Shown one piece after another: positions 46,934 to 51,305 of a DNA stretch of 64,000 bases. A program made the position numbers and the translations under genes. Origin of the DNA: Conexivisphaerales archaeon (GTDB lineage Archaea; Thermoproteota; Nitrososphaeria; Conexivisphaerales; DTJL01); contig JAVYTR010000008.1 in the NCBI GenBank assembly GCA_038728585.1, positions 1 through 64,000 on the forward strand. The letters are read 5' to 3'. Under the pieces are notes generated by a model. It made no database searches, was not told the DNA's origin, and saw nothing but the letters and a program-made list of their open reading frames with translations. How positions within the stretch are numbered: position 1 is the stretch's first letter; each line of letters starts with the position of its first letter.

Positions 46934-47710
46934 TCAGCGAAGGTCTTCAAGTTGTGGCCTGTCCCTCGCGATAGAGATCACAAGTTCAAAGTAATCACGA
47001 AGCATCTTTCTAAACTCCTCTTCGTTCAGGTCACCGTTTGCCTTCTCAAGAAAAGTTTCTATTGCATTGAAACTTGCCCTTGACGTATTCTTCATAAGAG
47101 ACAAAAACTGCTCGTTCTGCTTATTCATCTTGCTGTCTTCTAAAAACAGCCCTCTTCTCTTTAGAGAAGCTATGGCGAATGCGTTCCTGACAAGCGAAGA
47201 TGCATCAACCAGAGGATCGCCTACTGGCCTTTCTGTCACCCACCCCTCGAAGAATCTCTGAGCTAGCTTCCTCTCTTTCTCGTTCATTACATCAAAGACT
47301 ATATCATCCACTATGATGTTTTGCAAGTGGCTAAAGGAATCGATGAGATATGCCGATTCCCTTTCACTCAGTCCTTCCTTCTCCTTGTATTCTTCTACCA
47401 GTTCCTCGATCAGTTCGGAATCATGAGAAGGAAGCCCCTTCTCAGACGCGTAGATGTGCGCAAGTTCGTGCATCAGAAAACCACCTAGCATTTCTGAATC
47501 GAGTGCCCATTCTGAAGCGACTATGTACTGAGTGCCGTCCCTTTCTTTTGCATAGCCCATAAAGGTTAGCTTCGGGTCCACTATCAACTTGACCTGTGAC
47601 TTTATCTCATAACCAGAATCCCTCATTCTTTTCAAAGCCCAGTTCAGAGCTTCGTCAAGCGCTTCATCCTTCTTGTACTGTTTACTCAAACAACTAACCT
47701 CTCGCTTCAA
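46934..47710 (-). CDS. HExxH zincin-like metalloprotein (DUF5781-like)
   Basis: 258 residues with HELAH (in FLMHELAHIYAS, about residues 81-85), a zinc-protease type motif, inside a helical protein. Downstream acidic helices (HDSELIEELVEEYKEKEG, IIVDDIVFDV) could provide the third ligand. It resembles uncharacterised archaeal zincin families such as DUF5781, tentatively. No signal peptide, so cytoplasmic. Activity is uncertain because no third ligand can be named with confidence. Confidence 0.7.
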   Translation of the reverse strand: MKREVSCLSKQYKKDEALDEALNWALKRMRDSGYEIKSQVKLIVDPKLTFMGYAKERDGTQYIVASEWALDSEMLGGFLMHELAHIYASEKGLPSHDSELIEELVEEYKEKEGLSERESAYLIDSFSHLQNIIVDDIVFDVMNEKERKLAQRFFEGWVTERPVGDPLVDASSLVRNAFAIASLKRRGLFLEDSKMNKQNEQFLSLMKNTSRASFNAIETFLEKANGDLNEEEFRKMLRDYFELVISIARDRPQLEDLR

Positions 47711-47746: not shown

Positions 47747-48274
47747 TCAGTCAGGCCTGTCTAGCTCCTGTATTGCCTTCTCCCCCCTTAGCGAATCGCC
47801 TACTACTGCTCTCTGCGAGACAATTCCTATCGGTTTTCCATTTTCTAGCACTAGCAGTCTCCTTATCTTCTTCTCCTCCATGATTCTGAGCGCATCCTTA
47901 ACCGGTGTCTTCGAATCCACATGAATTACTGGAGACGACATTATCTTTCTTATTGTTATGGTTGAAGGAACCAGGTCTTCTGCTGCAACTTTGTAAAGAA
48001 TATCCCTTTCGGTTACTATACCCACAGGGTTCCCTTTCAGCATTACAATTGCACTTCCAACATTCTTCTCCTTCATAAGCTGAGCTGCTTTCCACACAGT
48101 CTCTCCTGCATCAAGCTTAAGAAAGTCCTTCCTTACAAAATCGCCAACTGTAGGTACCTTTCTCTCGACATGCCTGAGCCATATGCCCATTGAGTAATGG
48201 CATGAAGGACACTCCTCCGGTGGCTGAGCTGCATCAACAACATGACCGCACCTGTAACATTCCCATTTTGTCAA
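47747..48274 (-). CDS. Rubredoxin-like zinc ribbon plus CBS-pair protein
   Basis: 175 residues: a short ribbon (ECYRCGHVVDAAQPPEECPSCHYSMGIW, residues 5-32) followed by two CBS repeats (about 40-100 and 105-165), with the typical PVGIVTERDIL and PIGIVSQRAVV. CBS pairs bind adenosine nucleotides, and a ribbon of this kind is found in archaeal CBS regulators. It is 60 bp downstream of the HEAT gene and in the same direction. Confidence 0.88.
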   Translation of the reverse strand: MTKWECYRCGHVVDAAQPPEECPSCHYSMGIWLRHVERKVPTVGDFVRKDFLKLDAGETVWKAAQLMKEKNVGSAIVMLKGNPVGIVTERDILYKVAAEDLVPSTITIRKIMSSPVIHVDSKTPVKDALRIMEEKKIRRLLVLENGKPIGIVSQRAVVGDSLRGEKAIQELDRPD

Positions 48275-48334: not shown

Positions 48335-48844
48335 TCAGGGCCTGGGGGCCCTTTCTCTGGCAGTAGCCCCGACGAAGTATTTCTTAAGAAATCTGATGTT
48401 GAAAAGCGACGCTTTGGCGGAATTGCTTACGATAGGCTCTTTGTCTTCAGCAACCTTCTGCAACACTTCTTCTACTTCCTTGCTTCCTATCGACCCTAAG
48501 GCAGCTGCAGATTCATGCCTTACAACCGGGTCTTTGTCATACAATGCAGCCTTGCAAAGGTATTCATTTGCAGATGATAGACCTATCTGTCCCATCGAGA
48601 AAGCAGCCTCATGCCTTACCAGGGGGTCGGGGTCGTTGAGGAGCACATCCCCCAAAACCTTTACAGCCTGCTCTTTACCTATCTCTGCTAAAATTGTCAC
48701 AGCATGGAGCCTCAGCACTAGGCTGTCTTCGTTTTTCAATATGTTGACAAAGAACTCCTCGTCACCATCTTTGAAGTGTTTCTCCATGTCGAGCATTATC
48801 TTAAAACCGTATTCCTCATCGCAGAGGACCTTAGAAGTGTACAT
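48335..48844 (-). CDS. HEAT-repeat protein resembling one half of deoxyhypusine hydroxylase
   Basis: 169 residues with four HEAT units. Two carry HE dipeptides: VRHEAAFSMGQIG (H78-E79) and VRHESAAALGSIG (H110-E111), spacing 32. In eukaryotic deoxyhypusine hydroxylase each half has two such His-Glu motifs about 33 apart (human H56/E57 and H89/E90), ending in a helix like the EVEEVLQKVAED...FLKKYF seen here. So this is a candidate half-length (undimerised gene) version that could form a diiron site as a homodimer. The generic alternative is a PBS-lyase HEAT scaffold protein. The enzymatic call is inference from motif layout. Confidence 0.7.
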   Translation of the reverse strand: MYTSKVLCDEEYGFKIMLDMEKHFKDGDEEFFVNILKNEDSLVLRLHAVTILAEIGKEQAVKVLGDVLLNDPDPLVRHEAAFSMGQIGLSSANEYLCKAALYDKDPVVRHESAAALGSIGSKEVEEVLQKVAEDKEPIVSNSAKASLFNIRFLKKYFVGATARERAPRP

Positions 48845-48909: not shown

Positions 48910-49461
48910 CTATTCCTGCTCTGCTTCATACAGCAGTTCTTCAAGTAAGTCAAGGGTAGCCTCAACCTTTGCTCTGTCTTTCAGAGTTTCCATGTCCAGC
49001 TCTTCTACATTTCTTAGTATTGATAGTACGTCCATTTTGTCGATGACCCTCTTTTCCTCATCTATAGTATTCTTCATCAGCCTCAGTTTCTCAAGGAGTA
49101 GAGGTCCAGCTTCTTGCACGTATGTTCTGATTCCCAGAATCTTTGCCTCTCTCCTTGGTATCCTTTCCTGGGTCAGAATGATATCAAGCTGGAGCCCTTT
49201 GTTGTTTCTAAACGTAGCTATTCTGTACTTTGATTCCCAAGCGTTTCTCAATTCTTCTGCATTGCATTTGATCTTTATTCTGCTCAGTGCTTCTGCAAGG
49301 TCTTCAAACTGCTCAGGAGTGGCCCTGATAATGACATCAACATCTATCGTAGTCCTTGGCCTCCCGTAATAGCTGACAGCTAGAGCGCCTGTGATTGCAT
49401 ATTCCAACCCTAGCTCATTCAGCTTTGTCAGAACCTTCTTTACAAAGTCAGAGAAATTCAA
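48910..49461 (-). CDS. Nucleotidyltransferase (AbiEii/MNT-like), putative toxin component
   Basis: 183 residues: the nucleotidyltransferase motif GALAVSYYGRPRTTIDVDVII has G-x10ish-D-x-D metal ligands (DVD), with a further Asp in LQLDIILTQERIP. This type occurs in AbiE- and MNT/HEPN-type modules. The preceding small gene at 49491-49700 (in transcription order) is 29 bp away and is a likely partner. Activity and targets are unknown. Confidence 0.75.
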   Translation of the reverse strand: MNFSDFVKKVLTKLNELGLEYAITGALAVSYYGRPRTTIDVDVIIRATPEQFEDLAEALSRIKIKCNAEELRNAWESKYRIATFRNNKGLQLDIILTQERIPRREAKILGIRTYVQEAGPLLLEKLRLMKNTIDEEKRVIDKMDVLSILRNVEELDMETLKDRAKVEATLDLLEELLYEAEQE

Positions 49462-50018: not shown

Positions 50019-50456
50019 ATGTCAACTAAGCACCGAAGATACTTGCTCCATCCTTCGTCGTTCGAGACTCTGCTCAGCTATATATCAGAGAAGAACTTTA
50101 ACAAAATATTATCAGAAATATCCCTTACAGATGTGGGAGCGTTCAGAATCTACGAAGATATTTATGCTATCGCAGCCAGCAGAATAACAAAGAAGACACA
50201 TGCTGAAAGGTTGGTCAAGTCGATCAAACAAATTCTTTCATCTATGGACATAGTAAAGACCCTACCAGAGAATTATTCTGCTATAGCTAGATTCGGAAAG
50301 ATGACAAACCTCGGTTTTGTCGACGCAGCACATATCTACACTTGCTCTAAACTCAAAATGAGTCTTATCACAAAGGATAAGACTGATGCAGAATATTTGT
50401 CCAGATATACCCAATGTGTAGAAGTCGAGACCTTCGCAAAGAGCCTAATGGAATAG
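50019..50456 (+). CDS. Degenerate PIN-domain-like toxin partner (VapC-like)
   Basis: 145 residues after the antitoxin gene. It keeps the late PIN elements TNLGFVDAAHIYTCSKLKMSLITKDK (a typical D-x2-H-x3 then thr-Asp strand), with the first strand RYLLHPSSFETLLSYI, in which the usual Asp of LLDTS reads His. That weakens, but does not remove, the metal site. SD GGAAGG lies upstream of ATG. The overlap of its end with the haem O synthase gene (12 bp, convergent) is notable. Confidence 0.7.
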   Translation: MSTKHRRYLLHPSSFETLLSYISEKNFNKILSEISLTDVGAFRIYEDIYAIAASRITKKTHAERLVKSIKQILSSMDIVKTLPENYSAIARFGKMTNLGFVDAAHIYTCSKLKMSLITKDKTDAEYLSRYTQCVEVETFAKSLME

Positions 50457-51305
50457 AGCAACGTCAAGTGCCATCATCGTGAAGAGAATAGCTAGGTATG
50501 GTGATGTGAATTTGAAGAGTGTCCAGCTCGTCTTCTCGGTCGGGGATTTAACAAGTTTAAAGGATATCAGCAAAAGCGGAACACTCAAAGCTAGAGACGT
50601 GAACAGAGTCAATTCACCGAATGGAGAGCCAGGTAGAAATGGAAAGAGTATAGTGAACAGAGCCAGAAGTATACTTGTCGATGCTATGCATCTTATCCCC
50701 TTCTTGACACCCAGAACCACAGGGAGCATCGGAATTGATGCCCTGTTGTAATCTTCCCTGCACCTGATTGCCAGACTCCAGATGTGAATAGGGGTCCAGA
50801 GTACCACTATGGCAGCTAAGAAGAATGGTGTCAGGGATATAGCCTTTGATATGCTCAGATAGCCAACAAAGGCAGGAAAACCACCGCTCGGTGCGCCAAG
50901 TATTATGTTCCACGGAGTCCTTCTCTTAGTCAGCACGTTATATATCACTATGTTGTCTACCATCCCCAATGCCAGAAGGGTTGGATAAAGGAACCCCAGA
51001 GGTACAGCTATTGCAAGACCCAGAGTCGAAAGACCAAAGCCATAGGCCAGAGCAGATAAAGGTGATAAAGCTCCGGAGGGAAGTGGCCTGTGCTTCGTTC
51101 TGTTCATCAGAGCATCTATGTCTCTATCCACGTAGTTCGTAAGCGTCCTCGCCCCCATGCTGCAGAGAGCTACTGCGGCGGTGACATCTAGAAGTTTCAA
51201 AGGCTCCTTAATGCCTCCAGCCATTATGGCTGATGTGAATGCGGTGAACACAAGAAGAGAGACTATGTTGGGATTGGTCAGCTCCCAGTAGCTTCGGAGA
51301 CTCAT
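50445..51305 (-). CDS. ctaB: Protohaem IX farnesyltransferase (haem O synthase)
   Basis: A 286-residue UbiA-superfamily prenyltransferase with about seven helices. It has the first Asp-rich motif NYVDRDIDALMNRTKHRPLPSG and the CtaB signature REDYNRASIPMLPVVLG (second motif). It attaches a farnesyl group to haem b, making haem O for terminal oxidases. It therefore argues for aerobic respiration with a haem-copper oxidase. Monocistronic here; no oxidase genes are in the window. Starts at ATG 51305. Confidence 0.9.
   Translation of the reverse strand: MSLRSYWELTNPNIVSLLVFTAFTSAIMAGGIKEPLKLLDVTAAVALCSMGARTLTNYVDRDIDALMNRTKHRPLPSGALSPLSALAYGFGLSTLGLAIAVPLGFLYPTLLALGMVDNIVIYNVLTKRRTPWNIILGAPSGGFPAFVGYLSISKAISLTPFFLAAIVVLWTPIHIWSLAIRCREDYNRASIPMLPVVLGVKKGIRCIASTSILLALFTILFPFLPGSPFGELTLFTSLALSVPLLLISFKLVKSPTEKTSWTLFKFTSPYLAILFTMMALDVALFH

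Follow-up and report, generated by a model that had tools for sequence, protein, structure and literature searches.

The window analysed here, a stretch of 64,000 nucleotides from a Conexivisphaerales archaeon, encodes a small HEAT-repeat protein that could be an unduplicated, homodimeric di-iron deoxyhypusine hydroxylase (DOHH), a reading to which we assign a probability of about one half. This protein and its orthologues are called FamA, a label coined here. Human DOHH carries out the last step of hypusine formation on the translation factor IF5A. A half-length DOHH had been proposed in an earlier, sequence-only reading of the window, which placed the open reading frame exactly and left its minus-strand orientation unstated (Table 1). 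The wider proposal, that FamA is the unduplicated homodimeric DOHH of aerobic Nitrososphaeria including most ammonia-oxidising archaea (AOA) and that eukaryotic DOHH descends from this relative through duplication and fusion, is more tentative and falls somewhat short of an even chance.

Table 1. Coordinates of the FamA gene, its key codons, its neighbours and related genes; positions without a prefix are those of the window.
Feature	Position	Strand	Remark
FamA gene	48335..48844	minus	169 aa, as long as one half of DOHH; ATG start; coordinates include the stop codon
H78-E79 codons	48608..48613	minus	first HE pair; from alignment; kept 123/123
G85-Q86 codons	48587..48592	minus	HE..F..GQ signature; kept 123/123 in FamA, not in FamB
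H110-E111 codons	48512..48517	minus	second HE pair; from alignment; kept 123/123
AbiEii-like nucleotidyltransferase	48910-49461	minus	match slightly below Pfam cut-off
Rubredoxin-like/CBS protein	47747-48274	minus	downstream of FamA gene
DUF5781 protein	46934-47710	minus	in run with FamA gene
Haem O synthase	50445-51305
DS-family proteins of the host (L169, L170)	G000:C7:79174-80031, G000:C6:60893-61777
FamB loci	L148:1620-2084, L149:252-758, L151, L153, L155, L158, L161		AOA genomes
Third small HEAT protein	L160:351-842	minus	genome G094

In Pfam the protein matches HEAT repeats only (HEAT_2 at 2.9e-24, with HEAT_PBS also matched). The two His-Glu pairs to which the sequence-only reading had drawn attention, H78-E79 and H110-E111, lie 32 residues apart in successive HEAT repeats, and this HE-32-HE arrangement is found in all 123 non-identical FamA sequences. 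In all of them, too, the first repeat has Gly at H+7 followed by Gln at H+8, and the second repeat likewise has Gly at H+7. The invariant columns of a 20-member alignment include H78, E79, G85, Q86, H110 and E111, and a 37-member alignment has the same invariant columns. Identity between orthologues is 58-63% for near relatives and 40-48% for AOA. HE occurs in a single one of about 120 repeat-like segments collected from other HEAT-containing proteins, mostly ORFs of about 850 aa (in the host's ORF of this type the HEAT part follows an M1-type aminopeptidase-like part), and the motif is therefore neither a matter of chance nor a general property of HEAT repeats. An AlphaFold2 monomer model of the host protein has a confident core (mean pLDDT 89.5) and places the HE pairs as residues 5 and 6 of equivalent, parallel helices (H74-87 and H106-119), that is at the same position and not on opposite faces of the protein. 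The monomer model of an AOA orthologue (mean pLDDT 93.4) has the identical arrangement, with H72-E73 and H104-E105 in helices H68-81 and H100-113.

How close is this protein to DOHH? Among the natural proteins of the PDB, human DOHH (4D4Z) gives the best sequence match, with an E-value of 8.9e-19 for the single sequence and 1.9e-37 for the profile, and it is also the sole natural protein that the fold searches returned at E below 1e-3 (TMq 0.72 and 0.73). Designed alphaRep HEAT proteins score equal to or above DOHH in both kinds of search. Since these are idealised HEAT repeats, the fold alone says HEAT, and the case for DOHH depends on the residues of the motif and on the alignment with the separate halves. 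In this alignment FamA is colinear with either half of DOHH over the full length, and HE columns fall on HE columns. More precisely, H78-E79 aligns with human H56-E57 and H207-E208, H110-E111 with H89-E90 and H240-E241, and G85 with G63 and G214, the HE spacing being 33 in both human halves (56 to 89; 207 to 240) as against 32 in FamA. According to a review (PMC9117371), the human enzyme anchors its irons through H56, H89, E90, H207, H240 and E241 and binds the side chain of deoxyhypusine through E57, E90, E208, E241, G65 and G214. In the sequence of 4D4Z residue 65 is Met and the counterpart of G214 is G63, so that the published G65 is probably a misprint for G63. The iron-ligand and substrate positions of one half thus have their counterparts in H78, H110, E111, E79 and G85 of FamA, each kept in 123/123 sequences. 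Human DOHH and yeast Lia1 also share with FamA the HEAT repeats, HE pairs at matching helix positions of two consecutive repeats, and the signatures R.RA..(I/F).L in the preceding repeat, HE..[YF]..GQ[ML] and VRHE...[A]LG.I. The alignment hence bears out the likeness to the first human half, earlier judged by eye, apart from the C-terminal FLKKY, which is no family feature, as most AOA orthologues end in TGG. When the two DOHH halves were used as queries, the human sequence having been verified against 4D4Z for positions 1-289, FamA scored far above other HEAT proteins, with median bits of 46.5/42.9 for FamA, 30.2/13.1 for FamB (a second HE-HE family, see below) and 9.1/0 for other HEAT proteins. 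The order persisted when HE was masked in the targets (33.0/29.3, 17/0 and 9/0, respectively).

FamA departs from eukaryotic DOHH in size, with about 160 aa and two HE motifs instead of about 300 aa and four, and whereas the eukaryotic enzyme is a single chain, FamA would need to form a homodimer. The family definition of DOHH calls for four HE motifs in one chain; FamA, with two motifs and one half, is for this reason not classed as a member, although a DOHH-like function is the reading best supported by the data and stands at roughly even odds. From the comparison with the human enzyme we infer iron binding, a homodimer, chemistry with O2 and aIF5A as the substrate, and the following mode of action could be imagined. 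FamA would be an O2-dependent non-haem di-iron hydroxylase acting like DOHH with two identical half-length chains. Each chain would provide one iron site through H78, H110 and E111, which are invariant and aligned with the DOHH ligands, and two chains would face each other across a two-fold axis like the halves of human DOHH, bringing the two irons together. The deoxyhypusine of aIF5A would be held by its side chain at E79, E111 and G85, and hydroxylated to hypusine by a peroxo species of the di-iron centre, as in the human enzyme. On this view eukaryotic DOHH would represent such a half after duplication and fusion.

The context for such a reaction is present in the host's own genome, which encodes both deoxyhypusine synthase and an aIF5A with the target lysine in the loop SKPGKHGSAK. 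One of the two DS-family proteins of the host carries GGGISKHH, matching the GGGxxKHH motif, and the other, with GGGVPKNF, may have a different role. A PF01564 spermidine synthase was not found in the host genome, and full-length members of this family are scarce among the FamA carriers of the class-level sample. In Haloferax volcanii agmatine is the source of deoxyhypusine (PMC6105217), and by analogy deoxyhypusine could be made from agmatine in FamA hosts as well. Hypusine was reported in archaea decades ago, yet the literature, in keeping with the sequence-only reading, which took the archaeal enzyme to be not settled, still knows of no DOHH in archaea (PMC5178350, PMC6105217, PMC8153317, PMC3306375). 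Our search, which covered literature outside subscription, returned no report on hypusine in AOA and no paper linking DOHH or hypusine to the lineage of the window. Thermoproteus tenax and Pyrodictium occultum are anaerobes. Hypusine is reported in crenarchaea such as these two and in Sulfolobus acidocaldarius, and halophiles, methanogens, Thermococcales and Thermoplasmales contain mostly deoxyhypusine (PMC5178350). In our searches S. acidocaldarius, included as a named control, was matched by the COX1 and DS models and not by HEAT_2. Since this hypusine-positive archaeon has no HEAT_2 match and hypusine is reported in anaerobes, FamA is not the general archaeal enzyme and is at most the O2-dependent solution of Nitrososphaeria and some neighbours; another archaeal route to hypusine therefore exists, which could serve in FamA hosts too. 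The earlier idea of an unduplicated half-DOHH consequently holds up in respect of the length of one half, the colinear alignment, the retained key residues and the aerobic hosts, and fails as an account of hypusine in archaea at large.

The distribution of FamA, sampled within the phylum of the window, follows that of the terminal oxidase subunit COX1 (PF00115) in one direction. In the class-level sample FamA is present in 84 of 120 genomes, all 84 of which carry COX1, and in none of the 23 genomes lacking COX1; this count leaves out matches to long ORFs in families f2 and f6 and a match in G114 that concerns FamB only. In the phylum-level sample it is present in 92 of 397 genomes, a figure that takes in a broken copy in G107, with COX1 in 91 of the 92. 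The one carrier among the 230 genomes without COX1, G296, is an assembly of 350 contigs and 81% completeness. As the genomes are related, these counts are not to be read as independent trials. Intact orthologues score 171-277 bits and everything else at most 86, except for a broken copy in G112. FamA is nearly universal in AOA, is found in most other COX1-bearing Nitrososphaeria and also occurs in some Caldarchaeum-like and soil lineages; outside the class it was found in three families, with the matching loci labelled Caldarchaeum, HR01 or Thermoproteota, and Bathyarchaeota BA_x. The aerobic host that had earlier been argued from the haem O synthase gene fits the aerobic, COX1-bearing hosts in which FamA occurs. 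The converse does not hold, as FamA is missing from 76 of the 167 COX1-bearing genomes of the phylum-level sample, among them those of f20 and of f29, which we infer to be the Sulfolobaceae, and in the class-level sample from the f6 genomes (G002, G006, G018, G021 and others), which have COX1, often with two matches. Ammonia oxidation was considered as the trait linked to FamA and rejected because FamA also occurs in lineages named Gagatemarchaeum and Caldarchaeum, which to our knowledge are not ammonia oxidisers.

Could the HE pairs serve a purpose other than the hydroxylation of aIF5A? The main rival to the DOHH reading is that FamA is an HE-HEAT oxygenase with two irons or another metal, of DOHH ancestry and chemistry, that acts on another protein or on a small molecule, which we consider unlikely, though a serious contender. 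It draws on FamB, a second HE-HE HEAT family of about 170 aa in some AOA, which has HE-32-HE in 13 of 13 sequences and the layout SxRWDAVWLAGE ... VVRHEACYQIAARNMR ... RHEAIEALGLMRA. With at least two such families, FamA and FamB, in some AOA the scaffold has evidently diversified, and the HE motif alone does not fix the substrate; moreover, other archaea make hypusine without FamA, and spermidine synthase is missing in most FamA carriers. FamB resembles FamA in motif spacing and length, but it has an SxRWDxVWLAGE repeat before the first HE, does not conserve Gly and Gln at H+7 and H+8, and is patchily distributed; it is absent from the genome of the window, and a FamB profile searched through the phylum with E up to 1e-15 returned nothing outside genomes that carry FamA or FamB. 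It is probably another metal enzyme, and with its lower scores, the lack of Gly/Gln, the patchy occurrence and its absence from the host it is a less likely candidate for DOHH. Unlike FamB, FamA keeps the Gly of the first HE repeat that is tied to the binding of deoxyhypusine and, leaving the HE residues aside, resembles DOHH more closely, and these features, together with a single near-universal copy, as would suit a housekeeping substrate, and a host equipped with the synthase and aIF5A that a role in hypusine formation requires, favour aIF5A over another substrate. The tight link with COX1 could alternatively be explained if FamA were no oxygenase at all and bound iron, zinc or haem through its HE pairs, with aerobic metabolism served by a chaperone, a store or an assembly factor, the more so as partner binding is frequent in small HEAT proteins. 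Such a role is improbable in view of the many COX1-bearing lineages that do without FamA, which speak against a general oxidase assembly factor, and because the residues corresponding to the substrate side of DOHH, E79 and G85, vary no more than those at the metal-ligand positions.

Least probable is that FamA is an ordinary HEAT scaffold of the PBS-lyase type or an NblB/CpcE-like protein in which HE is incidental, a reading we strongly disfavour. The Pfam matches, the high scores of the alphaReps and the fact that NblB is the best named NCBIfam model would be in line with it. Albeit, it should be noted that FamA reaches 52.7 bits with the NblB model, against a cut-off of 300, and human DOHH itself obtains 54.6 bits from the same model; the scores with CpcF (21.3 bits, cut-off 220) and CpcE (12.1 bits, cut-off 330) are lower. 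The other HEAT repeats compared (the ORFs of about 850 aa, alphaReps, NblB, CpcE and YibA) share the fold and the repeat consensus with FamA, but HE pairs are nearly absent from them and they score low with the DOHH halves; a generic scaffold would have no conserved HE, whereas in FamA it is invariant in both repeats. Furthermore, phycobilisomes are absent from these archaea.

If the DOHH reading is true, FamA would be the first enzyme to fill this step in archaea, and hypusine would be made with O2 in some archaea and by a different route in others. A near-universal AOA gene that keeps the active-site residues of half a DOHH makes the question of an archaeal DOHH directly testable. It was proposed in a review of oxidase evolution that the di-iron oxygenase DOHH emerged from a non-enzymatic scaffold (PMC9040561), and a symmetric dimeric relative would, if FamA is one, explain how such an oxygenase could arise from a HEAT repeat. 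In a phylogenetic tree the halves of DOHH group as sisters (100/99), which is what a duplication on the branch leading to the human enzyme would produce. The separation of FamA, FamB and DOHH from other HEAT repeats is weak (78/84), with long branches and an unsure placement of DOHH. Relatives of FamA were found neither in viruses (none below 1e-3) nor on plasmids.

The FamA gene is part of a minus-strand gene run, and its context differs from lineage to lineage. The CBS and DUF5781 neighbours seen in the host are common to near relatives only, and no aIF5A or deoxyhypusine synthase gene was identified beside FamA in the neighbourhoods examined. Gene neighbourhood was rejected as a clue to hypusine, as the shared neighbours (SDR-type, ornithine-cyclodeaminase-like and thermosome-like ORFs) are uninformative. 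The downstream neighbour combines a rubredoxin-like zinc/iron ribbon with two CBS domains. Several irregular copies were also assessed. The host assembly includes a further FamA copy on a contig of 8029 bp (G000:C19, L144), which is most likely a contaminant, being 99.4% identical over 2.8 kb to the copy of another genus of the same family. The split copy of G112 was not accepted as an insertion at LVR^HE, because the break falls within scaffold N runs, and the G107 fragment adjoins bacterial-looking sequence and likely belongs to a chimeric contig. Finally, genome G094 encodes a small HEAT protein of a third kind, distinct from FamA and FamB, two repeats of which carry HE (RHEVAAQL ... RHEAIEALG).
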